In this document: one piece after another, positions 4,155 to 60,353 of the stretch | Numbering within the stretch: position 1 is the stretch's first letter | Layout: each line of letters starts with the position of its first letter | Made by a program: the position numbers and the translations under genes | Source: Clostridioides sp. ES-S-0054-01 | GTDB taxonomy: Bacteria > Bacillota > Clostridia > Peptostreptococcales > Peptostreptococcaceae | Length of the DNA stretch: 64,000 nt | Assembly: GCA_021561035.1 (NCBI GenBank) | Contig: CP067346.1 | Coordinates: forward strand, 341,001-405,000 | Direction of reading: 5' to 3' | Notes under the pieces: model-generated | Told to the model about the DNA's origin: nothing | The model's input: only the letters and a program-made list of their open reading frames with translations | The model's database searches: none

Positions 4155-5387
4155 TTATATTATATAATTTTTAGGAATTCTATCTCCAAACATTATTGTA
4201 AGTTGACCTAATGTAGCTGACCAATTTTGATTTGGAGAGTTCCATTTCTCAATAATTTTCATAGTTGATAGGTATAATGATTTTCTAAGTGACTCATCTG
4301 TAGGAAATACTGTTCTGACTTTAGTATATTTTCTAAGTTGCCTATTAAAACCTTCCAGTGCATTTGTAGTATATATAATTCTTCTAATATCTTCTGGGTA
4401 TGCAAAGAATGTTGATAAATTACTCCAATTATTATACCAAGAATCTATTACTACTGAATATTTTTGATACCATTTTTCCTTCAAGGAATCCAAGTTCAAG
4501 AGTGCTGTTTCTTCATTAAATGCCTTGTAAACTGATTTTAAATCTTTCATAAATTCTTTTTGGTCTTTTGATGCTATATATTTAAAACTATTTCTAATTT
4601 GATGAACTATACAGGTTTGTATACTTACATCTGGATATACCGTTTTTATTGCTTCTGGAAGTCCTTTTAGACCATCCATACAGGCAATCAATATATCTTC
4701 AAGCCCTCTATTTCTAAGGTCATTGCAGACTGATAACCAAAACTTAGCACCTTCGGCTTCACCTATCCAAATACCTAGAATATCTTTTTTTCCAGTCATA
4801 TCTAAAGCCATACATATATATGCAGCTTTAGAAACTATTTTATTATCATCTCTTACCTTAAAATGCATAGCATCCATATATACAATTGGATAAACTGATT
4901 CTAAAGTTCTACTTTGCCATTCGGCGGCAGCCTCCACAACCTTGTCGGTTATTTTAGATATCATTGATGGTGATACATCTATTCCATACAGCTCTTCCAT
5001 TTCTGATTGAATATCTCTTACACTCATGCCACATGCATAAAGACCAATTATTTTTTTATCTAGTTCATTACAAACCGTTTCATATTTTTTTACAACCTTC
5101 GGCTCAAACTCAGCATTTCTATCTCTTGGTATATCTAAATTTACCTCTCCAAAACTGCTACTTACATTTTTAGAACTATATCCATTTCGATAATTTTTAT
5201 CACACATATCTTTTCTTTCATATTTATTTCTACCTAAATGCTCCTCCATTTCTGCATCTAATAGTTGCTGAATAACATCTTTGAATAGTTTTTGCATAAG
5301 GCCATTTTTCCCAACCACATCTTCCATTGTCTTGCATTTTTTAACTTCTGTTTGATAATCAACATCTGGAACAATTATATCTTTCAT
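4155..5387 (-). CDS. IS256-family (mutator-type) transposase
   Basis: Cut-and-paste DDE transposase of about 410 aa, full length for the family. Catalytic residues are visible as D172 (VYMDAMHFKVR), D238 (IACMDGLKGLPEAI) and E345 (TTNALEGFNRQLRK), with the C-x2-H signature TCIVHQIRNS between the second D and the E. The N-terminal region has the usual EHLGRNKYER and RNGYSSK motifs. I place the start at ATG 5387 behind a GGAGG site rather than the upstream TTG at 5402. No disabling mutation is visible, so it may be active. Confidence 0.93.
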   Translation of the reverse strand: MKDIIVPDVDYQTEVKKCKTMEDVVGKNGLMQKLFKDVIQQLLDAEMEEHLGRNKYERKDMCDKNYRNGYSSKNVSSSFGEVNLDIPRDRNAEFEPKVVKKYETVCNELDKKIIGLYACGMSVRDIQSEMEELYGIDVSPSMISKITDKVVEAAAEWQSRTLESVYPIVYMDAMHFKVRDDNKIVSKAAYICMALDMTGKKDILGIWIGEAEGAKFWLSVCNDLRNRGLEDILIACMDGLKGLPEAIKTVYPDVSIQTCIVHQIRNSFKYIASKDQKEFMKDLKSVYKAFNEETALLNLDSLKEKWYQKYSVVIDSWYNNWSNLSTFFAYPEDIRRIIYTTNALEGFNRQLRKYTKVRTVFPTDESLRKSLYLSTMKIIEKWNSPNQNWSATLGQLTIMFGDRIPKNYII

Positions 5388-5501
5388 TTTCAAAACCTCC
5401 AAAATTTTTTATATGAATATTATTCCAAATTTACCAATTTTGTATACCAAAAAGACTATAGGTAAATTTGTTTTTACACAAATCTACTTACAGCCCCCAA
5501 T

Positions 5502-7723: not shown

Positions 7724-8014
7724 TAGATTTGACAATAAAACTTGGCATAAATTCACCAGATTTGTCTCTTTAAAATATATTTCAAACTCTACTTTATATA
7801 ACAGTTGAGTTTAATGCTTTATAATTGAAATATAATTTTTTTTAACTTGAAAGGAGTTTAATTTCTCAGACATATGAATATAGAGAAAAGTATTTAAAGA
7901 AATATCCTTATTTATTAGTTTATTAAATAGACTCTTCATTATAATTTCCTCATTTAATATAATATAAATAGTACTAAGGTTTTTATAAGAGTTAAATTAA
8001 GTATGTATTATTAC

Positions 8015-8413
8015 TCAAATATTTGTATAATCAACATCTAGTAATTTACCTTTTTGGTGAAAATGATTAATAAGTTTTTTAGGATAATTCATTATTAATT
8101 CATCTGGAAAATTAATTTCTTTTAAGATATTCTCAGAATACTCATAATTACCTATATCAAAACAAATGTGAGCATCTGAAGTTAGTATGATTTTAGTACC
8201 ATATTTTTTGCAAAGTGTGGCAATATACTTGCAATTATCCGAGCTACCATTTCTTGAGACACCTTTGATAGAACAATTATTTATTTCTATTAAGATATTC
8301 TTTTCCATGGCTAATTTAATGATTAATTCATAGTCGATTGGGTAGTTTGGGTTTCCAAGGTGGCCTAATATTTTAATATTATCATGCTTATTTATTGCAT
8401 TTAAATTCCTCCT
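8015..8413 (-). pseudogene. PHP-family phosphoesterase, C-terminal remnant
   Basis: The frame reads NLNAINKHDNIKILGHLGNP, then NYPIDYELIIKLAMEKNILIE, NNCSIKGVSRNGSSDN and IILTSDAHICFDIGNY, ending KGKLLDVDYTNI. These are the second half of a YcdX-like PHP metal-dependent phosphatase (GHLGNP and SDAH carry metal ligands). The first half (about 110 aa with the HTHT motif) is missing and a TAG closes the frame upstream at about 8414. An AGGAGG plus out-of-frame ATG (ATG CAA TAA) stands just before the remnant. An internal ATG at 8308 opens a 97-aa frame but would lack half of the metal site. The stretch 7746-8014 holds nothing else recognisable. Confidence 0.75.
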
Positions 8414-8561
8414 CTATAAAAGATGATGGTAACGTAATTTATATTATAAAACGAACAGGAAACAAAATCAATAGTTACACAATTAGACAAAAATATTAAA
8501 ATATTATAGAATTAAGCTTAATAATATTTAACAGTATTACTGCTTATACGGGAGGTTAACT

Positions 8562-11129
8562 ATGATACAAAAGAAGCTATCAAGGAAAGAAAAAGTTTTA
8601 ATTTGCTTGAAAAGGTTAACAGAAGAACACTTGAACCTTAATAATGGCATTAGATTTGGATTTGATGCAGAATATATTGCTACTGAAGTAGGTATAAATA
8701 GAAGTAATGCTAGTAAGGAATTAAATCAATTAATAAAGGAAAGTACTATTATAAAGATAAAGGGAAAACCTGTTCAGTACTTATATAAAGAAAGTATTGA
8801 GAGTATTTTAGGAAAGAAACTAAATAAAGGGATATTTGATAATATTAACTCTATAAACGAATATAGTGAAAATGATTCTATCAAAGATGAGTATATTGTA
8901 GAGGGTATAAAAAAAGAGAACAATATTTTTAATTTAATAGGCTGTGACGGAAGCTTAAAGTCCCAGATAGAGCAAGCTAAAGCAGCAGTAATATATCCAC
9001 CTAAGGGGTTGAGTACATTAATAATAGGACCTACAGGAGTTGGTAAATCTATATTTGCAGAATATATGTATAAGTATAGTTTAACTATAAAAGAAGATAG
9101 TGATAATACACCATTTATCATATTTAACTGTGCTGATTATTCTGATAATCAGCACTTATTATTAGCACAGCTTTTTGGATATGTAAAAGGAGCATTTACT
9201 GGAGCTGATAAAGATAAGTATGGTCTTGTACATGAGGCTAATAATGGAATATTATTTTTAGATGAAGTTCATAGGTTATCTGCAGAGGGGCAAGAAATGC
9301 TATTTCTGCTTATGGATAAAGGTATATATAGAAGGTTAGGAGAGGCTAATAAGGTACATGAGTGTAGGGTTATGATAATTGCAGCTACTACAGAAGACCC
9401 AGAGACAGCAATGTTGGATACGTTTTTAAGAAGAATACCTGTAACTATAAAGATTCCATCTTTAGAGGAAAGAGGTTTTCAAGAGAGAATGAAGCTTATA
9501 TGTTATTTTTTTAAAGAAGAAAGTATTAGGATTGGTGTTAAGTTAAAGGTTTCAAAAGAAGTTATTAAGGCATTTATTTTATATAAGTGTAAGGGAAATA
9601 TAGGACAATTAAAAAGTGACATACAATTAATTTGTGCAAGAGCTTTTTTAGATTATATGACCTATAAAAGGGAATGTGTATATGTAAGACTCTCTCTTCT
9701 ACCAAACAATATTAGAGAATCATTATATGGAAATAATAGAAAAGAGGAGTTTGTACAAAACTTCAGTTTTATTGGGAAAGATGATATTACTTTTTTACCA
9801 GAAAAAAAGAATTTTGAAAGTGAAAATTTATTAATAGAAAATAAAAAATATGATTTAGATTTCTATGGAATGATAAAAGAAACTTGGAATAAACTTCAAC
9901 AAGAAGGTATTAAAGAGTCACAAATTAGAAGCGTTATAGATGAAGATATACAGAAGTATTCCTATAATTTAATGAATACTTTTATATATAATAGTAGTAA
10001 TCAAACAGCCTATAACAATATTGTTAATGATTCAATTGCAACTACTGTGAAGTATATTTTACAAAAGCATGATAAATGGAGCAAAAGAGAAGGATTAGAT
10101 AAATTAATAAAAGCTATAGCCTTACATATTCAGAATTTAATTGAAAGAATAAAGATTGGAAACATAGTAAAGCACCCTAATAAAGATGAAATTATGAAGG
10201 AAAGAGCATATGAATATAACATAGCAAAGGAAATATTATCTAACGTGTCGTTAATGTATGGAGTTGAGTTTCCAGAAGATGAAGCAATTTTTTTAGCAAC
10301 GTTTCTTTATTTATCTTATGTGGGATTAAATGAGGAGAGTATAGCAATATTAGTTATAATGCATGGAGAATCTACGGCATCTAGCATGGTGAATGTAGCT
10401 AATACTTTACTGGATTGTAACCATGCAGTGGCAATCAATATGGGATTAGAAGATAGAGTTCAGGATATTTTAGTCCAAGCTGTAGAAATAGCCAATAAAA
10501 TTGACAAAGGAAAGGGAATTTTAATTCTAACTGATATGGGGTCTATTTTAACATTTGCTAAAGTTATTCATGATGCTACTGGAAAAGAAGTAAAAGCAAT
10601 AGATATGGTAAGTACACCTATTGTAATAGAAGCAACTAGAAAGGCTCTAACTCCGGAAATGACATTAGAGAAATTATATTTTAATATTATAGAATCTATA
10701 AAGAAACATTATGGAGATATGGAAATTACATATGCTGAAAAAGATAATGGTGGTAGATATTTTGATAGATTACTAATTGATAATATTAGTAAAACTTTGA
10801 CTTTTTTAAATGGGGAAAAGGCTTATTTTATATTAAAAGAAGTAATTAATAGAATTAGCGAACATTATTCTTTAGTAATCCAAGATGAGCTTTTAGTAAA
10901 GTTTATATTTCATTGTTCATGTATGATTGAAAGAGTAATAATAAAAGAGTCTTTAGTTTATAAATTATATGAAGAAAGAATTGGTAGAAGTAAAGAATTA
11001 TATTTAGTTATAAAAGAAAGTTTTAAGCTTGTAGAAGAGATATTCGATATAATTATTTCAGATATGGAATATGCAAATATATTAGATATATTTGAATCAC
11101 AGTATGATACAGATAAATTCAAAAGTTGA
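8562..11129 (+). CDS. levR: LevR-type sigma-54 activator with PTS regulation domains
   Basis: 855-aa enhancer-binding protein that activates sigma-54 promoters of mannose-family PTS operons. Domains: N-terminal winged helix (about 1-75); AAA+ domain (about 125-365) with Walker A GPTGVGKS (156-163), the sigma-54 contact loop GAFTGA (210-215) and Walker B ILFLDEVH (230-237); PRD1 (about 480-590, candidate phospho-His521); EIIA-Man-like domain (about 593-715, His601 in VIMHGES); PRD2 (about 745-850, His784). HPr and EII phosphorylation of these histidines is known to tune LevR activity. The gene is upstream of, and in the same direction as, the operon it should activate; its own terminator lies at 11141. 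Start ATG 8562 behind GGGAGG. Confidence 0.93.
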   Translation: MIQKKLSRKEKVLICLKRLTEEHLNLNNGIRFGFDAEYIATEVGINRSNASKELNQLIKESTIIKIKGKPVQYLYKESIESILGKKLNKGIFDNINSINEYSENDSIKDEYIVEGIKKENNIFNLIGCDGSLKSQIEQAKAAVIYPPKGLSTLIIGPTGVGKSIFAEYMYKYSLTIKEDSDNTPFIIFNCADYSDNQHLLLAQLFGYVKGAFTGADKDKYGLVHEANNGILFLDEVHRLSAEGQEMLFLLMDKGIYRRLGEANKVHECRVMIIAATTEDPETAMLDTFLRRIPVTIKIPSLEERGFQERMKLICYFFKEESIRIGVKLKVSKEVIKAFILYKCKGNIGQLKSDIQLICARAFLDYMTYKRECVYVRLSLLPNNIRESLYGNNRKEEFVQNFSFIGKDDITFLPEKKNFESENLLIENKKYDLDFYGMIKETWNKLQQEGIKESQIRSVIDEDIQKYSYNLMNTFIYNSSNQTAYNNIVNDSIATTVKYILQKHDKWSKREGLDKLIKAIALHIQNLIERIKIGNIVKHPNKDEIMKERAYEYNIAKEILSNVSLMYGVEFPEDEAIFLATFLYLSYVGLNEESIAILVIMHGESTASSMVNVANTLLDCNHAVAINMGLEDRVQDILVQAVEIANKIDKGKGILILTDMGSILTFAKVIHDATGKEVKAIDMVSTPIVIEATRKALTPEMTLEKLYFNIIESIKKHYGDMEITYAEKDNGGRYFDRLLIDNISKTLTFLNGEKAYFILKEVINRISEHYSLVIQDELLVKFIFHCSCMIERVIIKESLVYKLYEERIGRSKELYLVIKESFKLVEEIFDIIISDMEYANILDIFESQYDTDKFKS

Positions 11130-11299
11130 TACAAAATTTAAGGATAGCCAAAAGGCTACCTTTTTTTACTTCTTTTTGATACAGATTTGATACAGGTTTG
11201 AAAAAAGTTTTGATACATATTGAAAGAGTAAGTTTTTTTTATAAATTAAGTGAAAAGGTTTAATTAAATCCCGTATAATAGCCATTTGTTATTGATACA
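11126..11299 (+). promoter_or_regulatory. Five copies of TTGATACA upstream of the sigma-54 promoter (candidate LevR enhancer)
   Basis: Identical octamers TTGATACA start at 11126, 11176, 11187, 11210 and 11292. The three central copies are 11 and 23 bp apart, one and two helical turns, and lie about 90-130 bp upstream of the -24/-12 element, the normal position for an activator's upstream sequence. Binding by the LevR-type protein is inferred. Confidence 0.7.
11141..11168 (+). terminator. Terminator after levR
   Basis: GGATAGCC-AAAA-GGCTACC stem with one bulge, then seven or more T. Confidence 0.85.
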
Positions 11300-11305
11300 C
11301 ATAAG

Positions 11306-11322
11306 TTGGCACGGTAGTTGCT
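11306..11322 (+). promoter_or_regulatory. Sigma-54 (-24/-12) promoter of the PTS operon
   Basis: TTGGCACGGTAGTTGCT: GG at 11308-11309 and GC at 11320-11321 are 10 bp apart, matching the TGGCAC-N5-TTGC consensus perfectly. Confidence 0.93.
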
Positions 11323-11358
11323 TATATAAAAAGTGACAAGAAAAGTGAGGTGAGATTG

Positions 11359-11763
11359 GTGATAGGTATAATAGTTATGACTCATGGGAGTTTTAGTGAA
11401 GAAATTATAAAAAGCTGTGAACTTATTGCAGGACCAGCAGAAAGAACAGCAGCACTTAAACTAAATAGGAATGATAATATTGAAGACTTAAATAGAAATT
11501 TTGTAGAAAAGTTAAATGAATTAGATGAAGGTGACGGAGTTTTAGTATTAGCTGACCTATTAGGAGGTTCACCAAGTAATGTTGCAAGTTTAAACCTTAA
11601 AAAAGGTGGAAAGTTTCATGCACTTACTGGAGTAAATCTTACAATGCTACTTGAAGCTTTAATTAATAGAGAGGGAAAAAGTTTAGAAGAGTTAGCAGAG
11701 GCATGTATTGAAGCGGGGAAAACTGGTATAAATCATATTAATAAAGTTCTTAGCTCAATGTAA
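11359..11763 (+). CDS. PTS mannose/fructose/sorbose-family EIIA (first copy)
   Basis: Cytoplasmic phosphocarrier of the mannose-type PTS, about 134 aa. MIGIIVMTHGSFSEEIIKSC carries the phosphorylated histidine (His9) accepting phosphate from HPr; VLVLADLLGGSPSNVAS is the typical core. I start it at GTG 11359 because GAGGTGA ends about 6-8 nt upstream; in-frame GTG 11350 and TTG 11356 are alternatives. First gene of the sigma-54 operon, whose promoter lies 37 bp upstream. Confidence 0.92.
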   Translation: MIGIIVMTHGSFSEEIIKSCELIAGPAERTAALKLNRNDNIEDLNRNFVEKLNELDEGDGVLVLADLLGGSPSNVASLNLKKGGKFHALTGVNLTMLLEALINREGKSLEELAEACIEAGKTGINHINKVLSSM

Positions 11764-11786
11764 TAGAAAAAGGAGTTCGATTAAAA

Positions 11787-12284
11787 ATGTCTTTAGTAAA
11801 ATATTGCAGATGTGATGATAGATTAATACATGGTCAAGTGATATATAAATGGGTTAAGTATCTAGGTGTTAAAAAAATAGTAGTAGTAGATGATGAAACA
11901 ACCAATGATGTTATTGCTAAAGGTTTGGTAAAAATGGCAGCACCAAAGAATATTGATTTATCAATATTAACTGTAAGTGAATCAAGGAGGTATTTTTATA
12001 ATAACCAAGCTGATGATAACGTTTTTGTATTAATTAAAAACTTAGATACTGCAAATAGAATGAGAGAAGAAGGAATTGATATTAAAAAACTTATTATTGG
12101 AAGAATACCTACAGGAATAGGAAAAAAGAAAATATCTCAAAATGTATACATTAATAAAAAAGAGTTTCTTTTAATAGATAAATTTATTAAAAAAAATATA
12201 AATGTATCAATTCAAATGGTACCTGATGAGGAAGAAGTAGAATTAAATCATAGTATTAATCGCTATAAAGGAGAGTTTGTTTAA
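11787..12284 (+). CDS. PTS mannose/fructose/sorbose-family EIIB (first copy)
   Basis: 165-aa phosphocarrier that takes phosphate from EIIA and passes it to the incoming substrate. CRCDDRLIHGQVIYKWVKYL contains the active His15, and the family core follows (IVVVDDETTNDVIAKGLVKMAAPKN). Its closest relative in the window is the second EIIB at 12706, from which it differs clearly (DDRLIHG instead of DHRLIHG). Second gene of the operon; ribosome site AAGGAG. Confidence 0.93.
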   Translation: MSLVKYCRCDDRLIHGQVIYKWVKYLGVKKIVVVDDETTNDVIAKGLVKMAAPKNIDLSILTVSESRRYFYNNQADDNVFVLIKNLDTANRMREEGIDIKKLIIGRIPTGIGKKKISQNVYINKKEFLLIDKFIKKNINVSIQMVPDEEEVELNHSINRYKGEFV

Positions 12285-12286
12285 CA

Positions 12287-12688
12287 ATGAATAAATATAA
12301 GGCAATCATACTTTGCCATGGAACTTGGGGAAAGGTATTAATAGAAGAAGCAAATAAAAATTTTGGATTATCAAATCAATACGAAGTTTTATCACTAAGC
12401 TCTGAAAAAGATGTTTCTGTATTCATGAAAGAGGTTGAAGAAGTAGTAGATAAAGAGGATGTGAAAATTATAATAGCAGATTTGTATGGGGGATCTACAT
12501 CAAGTATTGCAATATCTGTTGCTATAAGAAGAGGGATAGATGCAATAAATGGACTTAGCTTACAGACAATTTTAATCGTAGATGAAGAATTAAGCAAAGA
12601 AGATAAAGTACATACATTACCAGAAAGAATCGTCAAAAAAAATAATAACCTTTGTGTGGATTTAATTAAGGAATTTAAAAAAATATAA
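12287..12688 (+). CDS. PTS mannose-family EIIA (second copy)
   Basis: 133 aa, same fold as the first EIIA: YKAIILCHGTWGKVLIEEA has the active-site His11, and VKIIIADLYGGSTSSIAISVA matches the DLxGGSP core. Divergent from the first copy, so it is not a recent duplication. It starts 2 bp after the preceding stop, implying translational coupling. Two EIIA and two EIIB in one operon suggest either two substrate specificities sharing one IIC/IID channel or one regulatory pair acting on LevR. Confidence 0.87.
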   Translation: MNKYKAIILCHGTWGKVLIEEANKNFGLSNQYEVLSLSSEKDVSVFMKEVEEVVDKEDVKIIIADLYGGSTSSIAISVAIRRGIDAINGLSLQTILIVDEELSKEDKVHTLPERIVKKNNNLCVDLIKEFKKI

Positions 12689-12705
12689 ATTATGAGGTGG
12701 ATATA

Positions 12706-13194
12706 ATGGCAAAAATAACATTAGTAAGAGTAGATCACAGATTAATTCATGGACAAGTTATAACAAAATGGGTGAAAATCGCTCAAGCTCAAAAAATAAT
12801 AATAGTTGATGACTTCTTAGGTCAAGATGAATTTATGGCTGACATATATAAAATGGCAGCGCCATCAGGAGTAGAAGTAGATATTTTAACAGCAGAAGAT
12901 GCAGGACAAGCATTCCAAAACAATACTTTAGGAGATAAAAATATATTTATTCTATTTAAGAACGTTGATATGGCAAATAAGGCGTATAAGGCTGGACTTA
13001 AATATGAAAAGATTCAATTAGGAGGTATCCCAAATGAAGCAGGAAAGAAGATGGTATTTACAGCTGTTTCATTAGGAAATGAAGATGTAGAACAACTAAA
13101 TGAACTTAATGAAGATGGGGTTGAAATAGTTTTACAAGTTATACCAGAGGAATCATCTATGACATATGAAAATGCGTTAAAGAAATTTAAATAA
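12706..13194 (+). CDS. PTS mannose/fructose/sorbose-family EIIB (second copy)
   Basis: 162-aa EIIB with LVRVDHRLIHGQVITKWVK (active His15) and the IIVVDD-type strand (IIIVDDFLGQDEFMADIYKM). GAGGTGGAT in front selects ATG 12706; the GTG at 12697 lies inside that ribosome site. This copy matches the family consensus more closely than the first and precedes the channel genes, so it is the likely substrate-phosphorylating partner of IIC/IID. Confidence 0.93.
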   Translation: MAKITLVRVDHRLIHGQVITKWVKIAQAQKIIIVDDFLGQDEFMADIYKMAAPSGVEVDILTAEDAGQAFQNNTLGDKNIFILFKNVDMANKAYKAGLKYEKIQLGGIPNEAGKKMVFTAVSLGNEDVEQLNELNEDGVEIVLQVIPEESSMTYENALKKFK

Positions 13195-13220
13195 AAATTA
13201 TAAATTAGGAGGAATTATAA

Positions 13221-13976
13221 ATGGAATCTGTTTTGATGTTGGCAATTATAACAGGATTATGGTATTGGTTTGCAGCAGGTCTTGCAGGGTATACCCTTTT
13301 TTCAACACTAAAGTCCCCTTTATTTATAGGTTTTAGTCTTGGATTACTTTGGGGTGATGTAACAACTGGTATGATTGTTGGTGCAAGTATAGAAATGGTT
13401 TATCTAGGAATGGTAGCAGCAGGAGGAAATATTCCATCAGATAAATGTTTAGCTGCTCTTATTGCAATACCAGTAGCACTTCAAACTGGTGTTAATGCAG
13501 AAGTTGCAGTATCTATTGCGGTACCTTTAGGTGTTATAGGAGTATTAGTTAATAACTTAAGAAGAACTGGTAATGCTGTATTAGTTCATAAGGCAGATAA
13601 GTATGCCGAAGAAGGTAACACAAAAGGTATATGGAGATGTGCAACACTTTACTCTTTAATATTTGGGTTTGTTTTAAGATTTCCAATAGTTTTTGTATGT
13701 AACTTTTTTGGAGCAGATTTAGTTAAATCATTATTAGATGTTATACCACAATGGTTGATGAATGGATTAACAGTAATGGGTGGTATATTACCTGCATTAG
13801 GTTTTGCAACAACAATATTTACTATAGGTAAAAATAAATTCTTACCAATGTTTATTATAGGATTTTTTATGGTTCAATATTTTGAAATTTCAATTACTGC
13901 TGCTGCAATATTTGGTGTTTGTATAGCTCTTTTAGTTACATTTATGAAAGAAGATAAAAGGGTGGGTGAAGTATGA
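13221..13976 (+). CDS. PTS mannose-family EIIC channel subunit
   Basis: 251-aa membrane protein with about 7-8 hydrophobic segments; characteristic stretch MIVGASIEMVYLGMVAAGGNIPSD (the E-M-x-x-L/M-G motif) and VNNLRRTGNAVLVHKADKYAEEGN. With EIID it forms the sugar channel in the inner membrane. Strong AGGAGG site at 13208. The stop overlaps the start of EIID, so the two are coupled. Confidence 0.94.
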   Translation: MESVLMLAIITGLWYWFAAGLAGYTLFSTLKSPLFIGFSLGLLWGDVTTGMIVGASIEMVYLGMVAAGGNIPSDKCLAALIAIPVALQTGVNAEVAVSIAVPLGVIGVLVNNLRRTGNAVLVHKADKYAEEGNTKGIWRCATLYSLIFGFVLRFPIVFVCNFFGADLVKSLLDVIPQWLMNGLTVMGGILPALGFATTIFTIGKNKFLPMFIIGFFMVQYFEISITAAAIFGVCIALLVTFMKEDKRVGEV

Positions 13977-14839
13977 TGCAAGAAATAAAAAATAAAGAAG
14001 TTAAAAATGAACAAGGTACAACTGAAGTTAATAAGACAAAAGTACTTACGAAAAAAGATGTAACAAAAACATATCTAAGATGGTGGTGGACAGCAGAATT
14101 ATCTAACTCTTTTGAAAGAATGCAAGCATTAGCAGTTTGTGCAAGTTTCACTCCGGCTTTAGAAAAGTTATATAAGAAAAAAGAAGATTTAGTAGATGCG
14201 TTAAAGAGACACTTACAATTTTTCAATACTCAAGCTATATGGGGAGGTTTAATTCACGGTACAGTTTTAGCTATGGAAGAAGAGAAGGCTACTGAAGGAA
14301 AAATCCCAGGAGAAGTTATTTCAGGTGTTAAGAATGGGCTTATGGGACCTTTGGCTGGAATTGGAGATACTTTAGATTTTGGTACATTTCAAACAATATT
14401 CTTAGCTTTAGGTGCTTCATTTGGAGCAGAAGGAAGTGTTATAGGTGCATTTTTCCCAATAATGTTTAGTATATTACTATTTTGCGAAGGTTATTACTTA
14501 TTTCATTTAGGATATTCTTTGGGTAGAGATTCAATTAAGAAAATTTTATCAGGTGGTATTGTCAATAAGATAATTGATGGTGCTTCGATTCTAGGAATGT
14601 TTATGATGGGAGCATTATCTGCAACTACAGTTAAGCTTTCAACTCCATTATCATTTGATATTGGTGGTAAAGCAATTGTTGTTCAAGATACATTAAACAT
14701 GATTGCTCCAGGTTTATTACCACTAGGTGTTGTATTCTTTGTATATTGGGGAATGAAATACAAGAAGTGGACAATAACTAAGTTATTAGTAATTTTAGTT
14801 GTAGTAGCATTGGTAGGGTCATTTATTGGAATATTCTAA
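13973..14839 (+). CDS. PTS mannose-family EIID subunit
   Basis: 288 aa. A soluble N-terminal part (LTKKDVTKTYLRWWWTAELS, FERMQALAVCASFTPALEKLY, HLQFFNTQ) is followed by the typical GVKNGLMGPLAGIGDTLDFG loop and several membrane helices. EIID pairs with EIIC for transport. Start at ATG 13973 or the adjacent ATG 13976; both overlap the EIIC stop. N-terminal Lys/Glu-rich extension of about 30 residues before the family core is a little longer than usual. Confidence 0.94.
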   Translation: MMQEIKNKEVKNEQGTTEVNKTKVLTKKDVTKTYLRWWWTAELSNSFERMQALAVCASFTPALEKLYKKKEDLVDALKRHLQFFNTQAIWGGLIHGTVLAMEEEKATEGKIPGEVISGVKNGLMGPLAGIGDTLDFGTFQTIFLALGASFGAEGSVIGAFFPIMFSILLFCEGYYLFHLGYSLGRDSIKKILSGGIVNKIIDGASILGMFMMGALSATTVKLSTPLSFDIGGKAIVVQDTLNMIAPGLLPLGVVFFVYWGMKYKKWTITKLLVILVVVALVGSFIGIF

Positions 14840-14885
14840 TTTACAATGATTAAAATATAGAATTTAATTTTAGGAGGAGAAAGAA

Positions 14886-15365
14886 ATGTCAGAAAAAATG
14901 TATACAGAAAAGGAATATTTAGAAGGAGTTAGAGGAGCAACAGGAGAAAGAGCAGTATGGTTCTATCTTCTTATGAAAGAAGCTGAAAAATTAGGAGTTA
15001 ATCCAGATGATATATGTAAAGAAGCAATATATGAATTTGGTAAAATGAGAGGTCAAAAATATAGCGTAGCAGATACTCCAGGAAAAATGGCAGAAATGTT
15101 ATATAACAGTAAAGGACAAAAAGTGTTTGAAATGGAATTAGTAGAAAATACAGATGAGAATGGAGTTTTAAAATTCCATCACTGTCCATTAGATGCTGCT
15201 TGGAAAGAATATGGATTAACTAAAGAAGAAAGAAAAGAAATTTGTAGATTAGCTTGCTACGGTGACTATGGAAGAGTTGATTGTGCACAAGGTGTTAGAT
15301 TAGAGTTTGCTCAAAAATGTGCTCATGATGATGAAGTTTGTGAGTTAGTATTCACAAGAAAATAG
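14886..15365 (+). CDS. L-2-amino-thiazoline-4-carboxylate (ATC) hydrolase-family protein
   Basis: 159-aa protein of the ATC_hydrolase family, named after the Pseudomonas enzyme that opens 2-amino-thiazoline-4-carboxylate to S-carbamoyl-cysteine, though most members have unknown substrates. Conserved residues visible: FHHCPLDAAWKEYGLT, CRLACYGDYGRVDCAQG and FAQKCAHDDEVCELVF, where several Cys/His could bind a metal. It follows EIID by 46 bp in the sigma-54 operon. The association with a PTS and a dipeptidase argues for a hydrolase that processes the imported, phosphorylated compound; this is inference. Confidence 0.82.
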   Translation: MSEKMYTEKEYLEGVRGATGERAVWFYLLMKEAEKLGVNPDDICKEAIYEFGKMRGQKYSVADTPGKMAEMLYNSKGQKVFEMELVENTDENGVLKFHHCPLDAAWKEYGLTKEERKEICRLACYGDYGRVDCAQGVRLEFAQKCAHDDEVCELVFTRK

Positions 15366-15377
15366 TTTTTAATGCTA

Positions 15378-15404
15378 AAAGCCTGTTCTTTAAGAACAGG
15401 CTTT
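15378..15404 (+). terminator. Perfect palindromic hairpin between ATC hydrolase and dipeptidase genes
   Basis: AAAGCCTGTTCTT-T-AAGAACAGGCTTT. It is followed by A rather than T residues, so it is more likely an mRNA-stabilising or processing hairpin, or a weak attenuator, than a strong terminator. Confidence 0.6.
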
Positions 15405-15429
15405 AAAAAAACAGAAAGTAGGTTGATTT

Positions 15430-16737
15430 ATGGATATAAGTAGAAGTGTAGATAATAGTTTAAATAGAACCGTAGAATTCCTAAAAGAATTAATAAAAAT
15501 TGACTCACAACAAGGTGAACCTATTTCACAATCTCCTTTTGGTATAGGACCTAAAAAATCTTTAGAGAAAACTTTAGATTACTGCGCTAGTTTGGGTTTT
15601 AGCGTTAAAAATATTGATAATTATATTGGATATGCAGAAATTGGAGAAGGAGAAGAATTGATAGGGATTCCAATGCATTTAGATGTAGTTCCACCAGGAG
15701 ATGGGTGGAGTGTAGAGCCATTTTCGGGAACAGTAATCGACAATATTATTTATGGAAGAGGTGCCATAGATAATAAGGGGGCTGTGTCTATGCTTATACA
15801 TGTATTGAAAAACATAGAGGATATGTATCCTACAATTAATAAAAGAATAAGATTAATTTTTGGTACAAATGAGGAAACAGGTATGGAATGTATCAAATAT
15901 TACTTAGATAAAGGTGAAGAAATTCCAAGTATGGGCTTTACTCCAGATGCTATGTATCCAGTGGTTAATGGAGAAAAAGGAAGGGTTCATATAAGGATAG
16001 AAAAAGAGATTAAAATTGATAAAAGTAAGCCTTACATAATAGTAAGTGGAGGAACTAAAGAAAATGTTGTTCCATCTCATTGTACTGCAAAAATTATTAA
16101 TGGAATTATTTCAGAGTTAACTACTAAAGGAGTAGCTACGCATGCAAGTAATCCTGAAAAGGGAGAAAATGCTATATCTAAAATGATAATAAAGATAGTT
16201 GAAGATAATATGGATTTTCAGTATAGAGAAGATATAGAATTAGTTTCAAAATACCTTTGTAGTGACTATTATGGAGATGCATTGGGGATTAATCAATATG
16301 ATGAGGTATTCAAAAACACTACCTTAAATTTAGGAATATTAAAGGTAAATGAGGAAAGAATCGTATGTGAGTTAGATATAAGGTATGGTAAAAATATAGT
16401 TTTAAATAATATAATAGATAGATTCAAAAAGTTTTTTTGTAATGGTTGGAAAATAGAAGTTATTGCTCATAAAGACTTACATTATGTGGATGAGAGTAAT
16501 TTAGTACTTAAAAAATTATTGAGAGCCTATGAAGAAGTAACAGATGAAAATGGATATACAATTGCTATGGGTGGTGGCACATATGCAAGTTGGTTTAAAG
16601 ATATGGTGGCGTTTGGACCTAAGTTCTTAGCGTATAAAACTGGTGGTCATGGAGTAGATGAAAGAGTACCAATAAATCATATACGAAAGAATATGGAGAT
16701 ATATACCTTGGCTTTAATAAAACTATTAGAATTGTAA
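15430..16737 (+). CDS. M20-family dipeptidase (PepV/Sapep-like)
   Basis: 435-aa zinc/manganese peptidase of the PepV-type M20 group, which removes N-terminal residues from dipeptides. Metal-site residues: H83 and D85 in PMHLDVVPPGDGW, D114 in YGRGAIDNKGAV, and E148/E149 in FGTNEETG; the C-terminal GGGTYASWFKDMVAFGP is also typical. It follows the PTS genes and ATC-hydrolase-like gene in the same direction with only a hairpin between, so it is probably the last gene of the operon. The peptidase suggests the imported compound contains an amino-acid or peptide bond. Confidence 0.9.
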   Translation: MDISRSVDNSLNRTVEFLKELIKIDSQQGEPISQSPFGIGPKKSLEKTLDYCASLGFSVKNIDNYIGYAEIGEGEELIGIPMHLDVVPPGDGWSVEPFSGTVIDNIIYGRGAIDNKGAVSMLIHVLKNIEDMYPTINKRIRLIFGTNEETGMECIKYYLDKGEEIPSMGFTPDAMYPVVNGEKGRVHIRIEKEIKIDKSKPYIIVSGGTKENVVPSHCTAKIINGIISELTTKGVATHASNPEKGENAISKMIIKIVEDNMDFQYREDIELVSKYLCSDYYGDALGINQYDEVFKNTTLNLGILKVNEERIVCELDIRYGKNIVLNNIIDRFKKFFCNGWKIEVIAHKDLHYVDESNLVLKKLLRAYEEVTDENGYTIAMGGGTYASWFKDMVAFGPKFLAYKTGGHGVDERVPINHIRKNMEIYTLALIKLLEL

Positions 16738-16814
16738 AAGGAGAAGAGACTTTATGTGCAAATATATAGATATCTTAAAAAGAGAGAAAAAATGAGTTCA
16801 ACTTTATTTAAATG

Positions 16815-16875
16815 TTCAACATCATCAGATACTATTCAATCACCTAAAGATTGAATAGTATCTGATGATGTTGAA
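16815..16875. repeat. Perfect 27-bp inverted repeat, 7-nt loop
   Basis: The arm at 16815-16841 (begins TTCAACATCATCAG, ends TTCAATC) is complemented base for base by 16849-16875. No T-tail follows, so it is not a classical terminator. It abuts a dead immunity-like gene. A short frame (MSSTLFKCSTSSD...) ends inside it and is probably not a gene. A 13-codon frame with a fair ribosome site also starts at 16754 just after the dipeptidase stop. Confidence 0.9.
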
Positions 16876-17093
16876 GAGAAAATAAGTATGAAGTTATTAA
16901 AAAAGATGATTTTATAAAAGTTAAGGTTGAAAAGTTAATTGAATGGAATTAGCTAAATGGAGAAGACTGTATACTATCTAATAAAATAACAAAAGAGTGT
17001 TATAAAATTGGTTATATGATTAGAGAAAAGTCTATTGATACTTATCCAGATAGTAGATGGGGATTTACGACTTGGGATGAAAATGGAGAATAA
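16875..17093 (+). pseudogene. Imm33/DUF2185-like immunity protein, decayed
   Basis: One frame reads ENKYEVIKKDDFIKVKVEKL, IEWN, TAG, then LNGEDCILSNKITKECYKIG and YMIREKSIDTYPDSRWGFTT before TAA. The pattern CxxSxxIxxxGYKIGYMxRE...D(S)GWRF matches the DUF2185/Imm33 family, found as orphan immunity genes. It lacks a start, contains an in-frame stop and ends early after the W-G-F segment. Family call is by motif only. Confidence 0.5.
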
Positions 17094-17133: not shown

Positions 17134-17169
17134 AAGCAGTTAATCTAAATGATTGACTGCTTTTCTTTT
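17134..17169 (+). terminator. Terminator-like hairpin
   Basis: AAGCAGTTAATC...GATTGACTGCTT followed by TTTCTTTT. The remainder of 17170-17518 is AT-rich with no recognisable gene. Confidence 0.75.

Positions 17170-58955: not shown

Positions 58956-60353
<1,398 letters not shown>

Follow-up and report, generated by a model that had tools for sequence, protein, structure and literature searches.

The window analysed here, a 64-kb stretch (bases 341001–405000) of the 3.93-Mb single-contig genome of Clostridioides sp. ES-S-0054-01, carries at 8562–16737 nine intact genes encoding, in order, a LevR-type activator, a mannose-type phosphotransferase system (PTS) arranged IIA-IIB-IIA-IIB-IIC-IID, a protein of the 2-amino-thiazoline-4-carboxylate (ATC) hydrolase family (Pfam accession: PF14196) and an M20 metallopeptidase, followed by the remnant of cyuA, a gene for L-cysteine desulfidase (Table 1). 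Gene order, family assignments and sigma-54 control, all proposed in a first-pass annotation, are borne out by the list of open reading frames (ORFs), by Pfam and NCBIfam scans and by a promoter match, as is the absence of a deglycase or aldolase, none being found among the nine proteins scanned. We read the system as an operon for a mannose-type PTS with a tie to the catabolism of cysteine; the broken cyuA end, absent from the earlier reading, is the strongest clue. Terminator-like sites on the forward strand lie at 9130, at the hairpin after levR and then at 17134, past the M20 gene, so that the PTS, PF14196 and M20 genes may share one transcript.

Table 1. Features of the operon and its flanks (positions are those of the window)
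Feature	Position	Strand	Remarks
LevR-type sigma-54 enhancer-binding protein (levR)	8562..11129	+	855 aa; AAA+ with GAFTGA, two PRD stretches, EIIA-man
Hairpin, intrinsic-terminator-like	11145..11158	+	directly 3′ of levR; stem kept in alignment
Five TTGATACA boxes	11126..11299	+	at 11126, 11176, 11187, 11210, 11292
−24/−12 promoter TGGCACGGTAGTTGCT	11307..11322	+	pattern search; published promoter of C. difficile orthologue (PMC7438776)
PTS mannose-family IIA (IIA1)	11359..11763	+	start by eye; ORF list: GTG 11350
PTS IIB (IIB1)	11787..12284	+	
Divergent IIA (IIA2)	12287..12688	+	CHG motif retained
PTS IIB (IIB2)	12706..13194	+	best match of single Atopobiaceae IIB
PTS IIC	13221..13976	+	
PTS IID	13973..14839	+	
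PF14196 (ATC-hydrolase family) protein	14886..15365	+	clade of ~160 aa
M20 PepV/Sapep-like metallopeptidase	15430..16737	+	
cyuA (L-cysteine desulfidase) remnant	16754..16885	+	

The regulator shows all the hallmarks of a LevR-type activator (Sigma54_activat, 135 bits, with GAFTGA at residue 210; PRD, 88.9 bits; EIIA-man, 42.9 bits) and falls outside the DagR family, reaching 543.3 bits against a cut-off of 1400 for NCBIfam NF047795. The −24/−12 element downstream, TGGCAC-N5-TTGCT, is the sole mismatch-free match to the pattern used in the whole 64 kb and ends ∼36 bases 5′ of the likely IIA start. Around and above it, five TTGATACA boxes fall within 174 bp, three of them included in an 11-bp tandem at 11175–11221, with 14 occurrences of the motif on both strands of the window against 4.5 expected; these boxes are probably activator sites. 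In alignment, promoter and boxes are largely kept in five other Clostridioides genomes and in Clostridium paraputrificum, where all boxes are conserved except one base of one box. For sigma-54 itself, the genome holds one strong match (a 452-residue frame) and two weak partial ones.

The four mannose-family PTS models (PF03610, PF03830, PF03609 and PF03613) are all matched above cut-off, IIA2 being the divergent subunit, with no Pfam match at E 0.001 and 24 bits to NCBIfam AgaF, far below the cut-off of 130. Loci of Atopobiaceae have a single IIA and a single IIB, whose best counterparts are IIA1 and IIB2, and no LevR match was found in the seven such loci; across the 14 PTS-type loci examined, the IIB1–IIA2 pair is present only where LevR is present, a distribution that suggests a regulatory role for the pair. 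The ratio of nonsynonymous to synonymous substitution (dN/dS), taken as a ratio of means over 21 pairs among seven genomes (10 pairs in the case of IID, where two genomes with a match beginning at residue 8 were omitted), is 0.055 for IID, 0.08 for IIC, 0.09 for both LevR and the PF14196 protein, 0.10 for IIB2, 0.18 for IIA2 and 0.19 for M20, and is highest in IIB1 (0.24) and IIA1 (0.27); in Clostridioides, the PTS, PF14196 and M20 genes are under purifying selection while cyuA decayed.

With 37.7 bits against a curated cut-off of 28.1, the PF14196 protein is a divergent member of its family. Across 14 sequences Cys100 and Cys152 never vary and Cys120 hardly does; the proteins of Clostridioides difficile relatives are 96–98% identical to the window copy. 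A PDB sequence search with this protein gave no match, and an AlphaFold model built from 11 sequences was unusable (mean pLDDT, a per-residue confidence score, of 50); gene context makes an enzymatic role likely. The M20 protein had been called a PepV-like dipeptidase, an assignment that stands at the level of the Sapep/PepV subfamily (TIGR01887 Sapep dipeptidase, 347.8 against a cut-off of 207.95) and fails for PepV proper, the scores to the equivalogs NF005591 (366.5 against 435) and TIGR01886 (256.7 against 632) lying below cut-off. The residues that we take to be metal ligands by analogy with PepV are conserved in the aligned orthologues. A function as N-carbamoyl-cysteine amidohydrolase, as in Pseudomonas, was considered and set aside, no carbamoylase model appearing among the matches listed (25 of 43 in NCBIfam); N-carbamoyl cleavage is kept as an alternative amide cleavage.

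Outside Clostridioides, a full-length cyuA stands directly after the M20 gene in all eight PTS loci, separated by 16 bp in C. paraputrificum (L026), 1 bp in L031 and 2 bp in L034. In C. paraputrificum, ridA follows cyuA after a 12-bp gap, and a HAD-family gene, Pfam-confirmed on L030 only, follows it in L030, L031 and L035, the loci read there. The C. paraputrificum CyuA matches Pfam SDH_alpha and no NCBIfam model at E 0.001; the three of eight operon copies that were aligned (L026, L031, L034) keep the Cys-x-Glu and the three cluster cysteines, the catalytic and cluster residues named for MmCyuA (PMC12647591). In the window, the reading frame is not intact, consisting of the first 11 matching codons, an early stop and a fragment near the 3′ end, and the remnant region gave no ridA match. 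Remnants elsewhere cover residues 1–131 in two frames (G007), 1–107 (G005), two fragments (G006) and 46–78 (G010), and no cyuA match was found in G004; cyuA is broken or gone in all six operon-bearing Clostridioides loci. The ancestral operon would have continued into cyuA–ridA, both since lost from Clostridioides. Within the window remnant lies an inverted repeat whose 27-bp arms pair perfectly around a 7-base loop (16815–16875), of which 26 of 27 pairs are found in L029, the best arm at the corresponding place in the intact C. paraputrificum gene being only 5 bp; it looks like a template-switch mutation.

A separate 441-residue member of the CyuA family is encoded in all eight Clostridioides genomes, the copy in the same genome as the window being 40% identical to CyuA. 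This protein is presumed to be CdsB, reported as an inducible cysteine desulfidase in C. difficile (PMC5767170). C. paraputrificum has no 441-residue copy and carries a 297-residue serine-dehydratase-family protein besides its operon cyuA, and three family members are encoded in each of the five Atopobiaceae genomes searched (the operon copy, a serine-dehydratase-like one and a further one, in one case 38% identical to CyuA).

Conservation of gene order beyond the genus, set beforehand as a test of the first-pass annotation, is found in C. paraputrificum and in seven of 140 Atopobiaceae (Actinomycetota) genomes, all of which have IIA-IIB-IIC-IID-PF14196-M20 in common, and the idea of a gene set confined to Clostridioides is ruled out by these loci. 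Atopobiaceae IIC, IID and PF14196 proteins are ∼56–69% identical to those of the window. The PF14196 gene is present in six of eight Clostridioides genomes, the two others (G008 and G009) also being without a matching IID, and in one of 23 genera of the family. A single-protein scan of the genome collection returned C. paraputrificum, three Clostridioides and six Atopobiaceae records; in the phylum sample, 13 of 398 genomes matched at E 1e-25, the window's own copy at 320 bits and the next at 120, and no PTS was within reach in the other 12. PTS, PF14196 and M20 occur together in 14/14 PTS-type loci (six Clostridioides, one C. paraputrificum, seven Atopobiaceae), which form one PF14196 clade with support of 100/100.

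Between C. paraputrificum and the six Clostridioides, a block of ∼9 kb (L026 2675–11900, window 7898–16786) is 93.7–95.6% identical in DNA, nearly as high as the 95.8–97.5% found between the window operon and those of the other five Clostridioides. A mislabelled Clostridioides as the source of L026 was rejected on its different serine-dehydratase-family gene set, the lack of a 441-residue protein and a mostly unmatched flank, and other genomes came up when its family was searched; with mislabelling set aside, the identity of the block indicates recent horizontal transfer between families.

The survey of the wider PF14196 family took in 70 loci, 14 with a PTS (the window and 13 others) and 56 lacking one. 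The 56 come from all eight places outside the genus, 19 of 35 and 17 of 18 further genomes, and all 12 of the phylum sample; some sit on short contigs. A cyuA match within 10 kb is present at eight of the 14 PTS loci, all eight outside Clostridioides, and at nine of the 56 others, of which eight aligned full length and the ninth (L167) is an ORF match; the remnants in L027 and L028 are excluded from these counts. The nine span several separate clades and arrangements (GntR-PF14196-cyuA-membrane protein; PF14196-HAAT-DhaKL-cyuA; cyuA-ridA-HAAT-PF14196-DhaKL-ribokinase; HAAT-PF14196-cyuA-DhaKLM), related loci not being independent. A rough estimate, made without a shuffled control and assuming two to three wider-family members per 2–4 Mb genome, puts the chance of a cyuA-family gene in a 20-kb stretch at ∼1–2%. 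HAAT-type ATP-binding cassette (ABC) transporters, which carry amino acids, occur at 14 of the 56 non-PTS loci and DhaK, a dihydroxyacetone-type kinase, at 11 of these 14, DhaK being near none of the 14 PTS loci, a pattern to be expected if the PTS takes the place of ABC importer and kinase; the window M20 is matched near 14/14 PTS loci and 0/56 others (E 1e-15). Pyridoxal phosphate (PLP) enzymes of sulfur-amino-acid type lie near L016, L134, L166 and L168, LarE near L016 and L166, and ProC-like or longer PF14196 proteins near other loci.

Two groups of these relatives have neighbourhoods of their own. Clostridium-family loci L131 (9575–16528), L134 (7357–13302) and L137 (8135–13387) pair a short with a long PF14196 protein beside a ProC-like reductase (Pfam on L134) and an ABC transporter for polar amino acids, which suggests a route of thiazolidine or thiazoline oxidation and hydrolysis; in L127 (4299–9631) and L167, HAAT-PF14196 is accompanied by DhaK-DhaL and a DhaM-like protein of EIIA-man type, a hint that the remainder may be ketose- or triose-like. 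In the window itself, a 97-residue ORF upstream of levR (7898–8403), PHP-domain-like by eye, is 277 residues long in L026 and L051, ∼350 bp being missing in the window relative to L026, and a 415-residue ORF (4155–5402), IS256-type transposase-like by eye, lies ∼3.1 kb upstream of levR. On the reverse strand, a match that recurs four times unchanged at 36-base intervals (59753–59876) points to a 36-bp repeat array.

We hold it to be an even call that the operon catabolises a cysteine-bearing, sugar-like conjugate imported by the PTS. The earlier suggestion of amino-acid conjugate uptake has gained on its cysteine or thiazoline side from the occurrence of cyuA (8/8 PTS loci outside Clostridioides, 9/56 non-PTS loci); substrate, reaction order and the activities of the PF14196 and M20 proteins are inferred. 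PTS phosphorylation would let LevR sense the substrate and, together with SigL, turn the operon on; IIA1-IIB2-IIC-IID would import the conjugate, phosphorylating a sugar-type hydroxyl; the PF14196 protein would open a thiazoline- or thiazolidine-like ring, or another cysteine link; and M20 would cut a remaining amide, for example in Cys-Gly or N-acyl-cysteine, to yield free cysteine and a sugar phosphate able to enter glycolysis. Thiazolidines form from sugars and cysteine, and a phosphorylated aldose-cysteine thiazolidine would, once opened, give a sugar phosphate directly, so that no isomerase, aldolase or deglycase would be needed. The last ancestral steps would be conversion of cysteine by CyuA to pyruvate, H2S and ammonia and then the action of RidA, which clears 2-aminoacrylate; Clostridioides, having lost cyuA–ridA, could use the chromosomal CdsB-like enzyme.

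Loci with recognised neighbours point to a shared theme of cysteine-compound uptake, opening, desulfuration and phosphorylation of the hydroxylated remainder. Kinases would carry out the phosphorylation in the ABC variants; in the PTS variant the transporter would do so, and M20, specific to that variant in the sample, would remove a further amide (the glycine of Cys-Gly, or an acyl group). A narrower proposal, that the PTS is dedicated to glycated cysteine, importing and phosphorylating a sugar-cysteine or sugar-Cys-Gly thiazolidine whose ring the PF14196 protein opens and from which M20 releases cysteine for conversion by a desulfidase to pyruvate and H2S, is tentative, with the balance leaning against it; reducing sugars and the breakdown of glutathione could give rise to such thiazolidines spontaneously in the gut. 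Under this proposal the orphan ‘mannose’ PTS of C. difficile, in which toxin genes are reportedly cysteine-repressed, would become a cysteine-delivery route.

Several observations weigh against a cysteine conjugate. The published expression links considered are with SigL and low iron, not with cysteine conjugates (PMC7438776, PMC6311696); the PF14196 protein is divergent, at 37.7 bits where a longer, ∼235-residue member in L131 reaches 114; M20 resembles PepV rather than any obvious N-carbamoylase, and no match to it lies near the non-PTS loci; two of the eight Clostridioides genomes are without the operon; cyuA is missing within 10 kb at 47 of the 56 non-PTS loci, 31 of which show no tested neighbour at all; and the 19 Coriobacteriia relatives L088–L106, without any tested neighbour, indicate a family that is not always cysteine-tied. 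CdsB redundancy as the sole cause of cyuA loss is likewise weakened, Atopobiaceae keeping the operon copy despite a further member, and with three family members in each genome searched there, redundancy is not the whole explanation. PF14196 also resembles the V4R and HNOB sensor domains, with which it has a three-cysteine cluster in common (PMC5847659), and this likeness, together with the conserved cysteines noted above, speaks for a small-molecule or metal sensor, or a thiol-binding protein, that tunes a cysteine/H2S response. We consider such a role quite improbable, given that Pfam finds no output domain on the protein and that its gene lies between transporter and peptidase genes, away from the regulator.

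An ordinary sugar or amino-sugar PTS, along which PF14196, M20 and cyuA moved as passengers, would accord with the decay of cyuA in Clostridioides, which implies that the tail, or some of it, can be done without. To our knowledge, the known substrates of mannose-family PTSs are sugars or sugar derivatives, a further point in favour of passengers; the conservation of gene order across phyla at the protein identities given above, the purifying selection on PF14196 and M20 and the recurrence of the PF14196–cyuA pairing without a PTS nonetheless make this explanation improbable. It is also unlikely, in our judgement, that the conjugate carries another amino acid such as serine, or an N-acyl or dipeptide group, with the CyuA-like protein acting as a dehydratase of the serine-dehydratase family. 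The SDH_alpha match, to a model named after serine dehydratase, the lack of an NCBIfam match and the dipeptidase-like character of M20 all fit this alternative; against it stand a GCTEP and three-cysteine pattern that agrees with CyuA, the 40% identity of the operon CyuA to the presumed CdsB (PMC5767170) and the sulfur-amino-acid-type PLP enzymes and LarE near the relatives listed above.

Should the cysteine-conjugate reading hold, a PTS annotated for sugar in a major gut pathogen and in its relatives would in fact admit cysteine-bearing conjugates, and sugar uptake would be linked with the production of sulfide and with cysteine signalling. PF14196, named after one bacterial enzyme, would gain a physiological setting in gut bacteria, together with a concrete list of candidate substrates.

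The combination of a sigma-54 activator with a mannose-type PTS for an amine-bearing sugar is familiar from the glucoselysine/fructosamine (gfrABCDEF, GfrR) and D-glucosaminate (dga, DagR) systems, from which the window operon differs in having no deglycase, ammonia-lyase or aldolase among its nine proteins and, in the case of dga, in a regulator that scores far below the DagR cut-off. Its closest counterpart is CD0284–CD0289 of C. difficile 630, which has the same IIA-IIB-IIA-IIB-IIC-IID order, adjoins the LevR-type CD0283 and is preceded by a closely similar promoter, TTGGCACGGCAATTGCTTA (PMC7438776, PMC9130780, PMC6311696), and which, with CD0283, is taken to be the orthologue; G004 carries the 630 promoter core before its own operon, with full-length PF14196 and M20 matches. 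Expression of CD0284–0289 falls to 0.2–0.3x in a sigL mutant (PMC7438776 Table 4), and CD0285–0289 transcripts rise by 1.5–2.3 log2 at low iron and 1.7–2.7 in a fur mutant, the proteins changing by −0.5 to 0.2 and 0.1 to 1.0, respectively (PMC6311696). In the sections of these reports covered, CD0284–CD0289 is described as a SigL-dependent second-line mannose/fructose/sorbose PTS, PF14196, M20, the lost cyuA and the substrate being unnamed. Nie 2019 (PMC6615313) gives gfr and cdsB modules for Clostridioides and leaves eight regulator groups without function, the part of its Table 1 consulted holding no entry for this PTS module; in the titles and abstract openings of the papers found on glycated amino acids, LevR, thiazolidine and ATC, no description of the substrate of this operon appears.

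As in known CyuA/CdsB L-cysteine desulfidases, catalytic and cluster residues are kept in the C. paraputrificum and two Atopobiaceae operon copies; unlike those enzymes, the operon enzyme is tied to a PTS, and the window copy is broken. The same logic as proposed here underlies the Pseudomonas pathway in which ATC hydrolase yields carbamoyl-cysteine, an amidohydrolase releases cysteine and a cysteine desulfhydrase follows (PMC10821248); unlike that pathway, the window combines a divergent PF14196 protein and a PepV-like M20 peptidase with phosphorylating uptake through a PTS.

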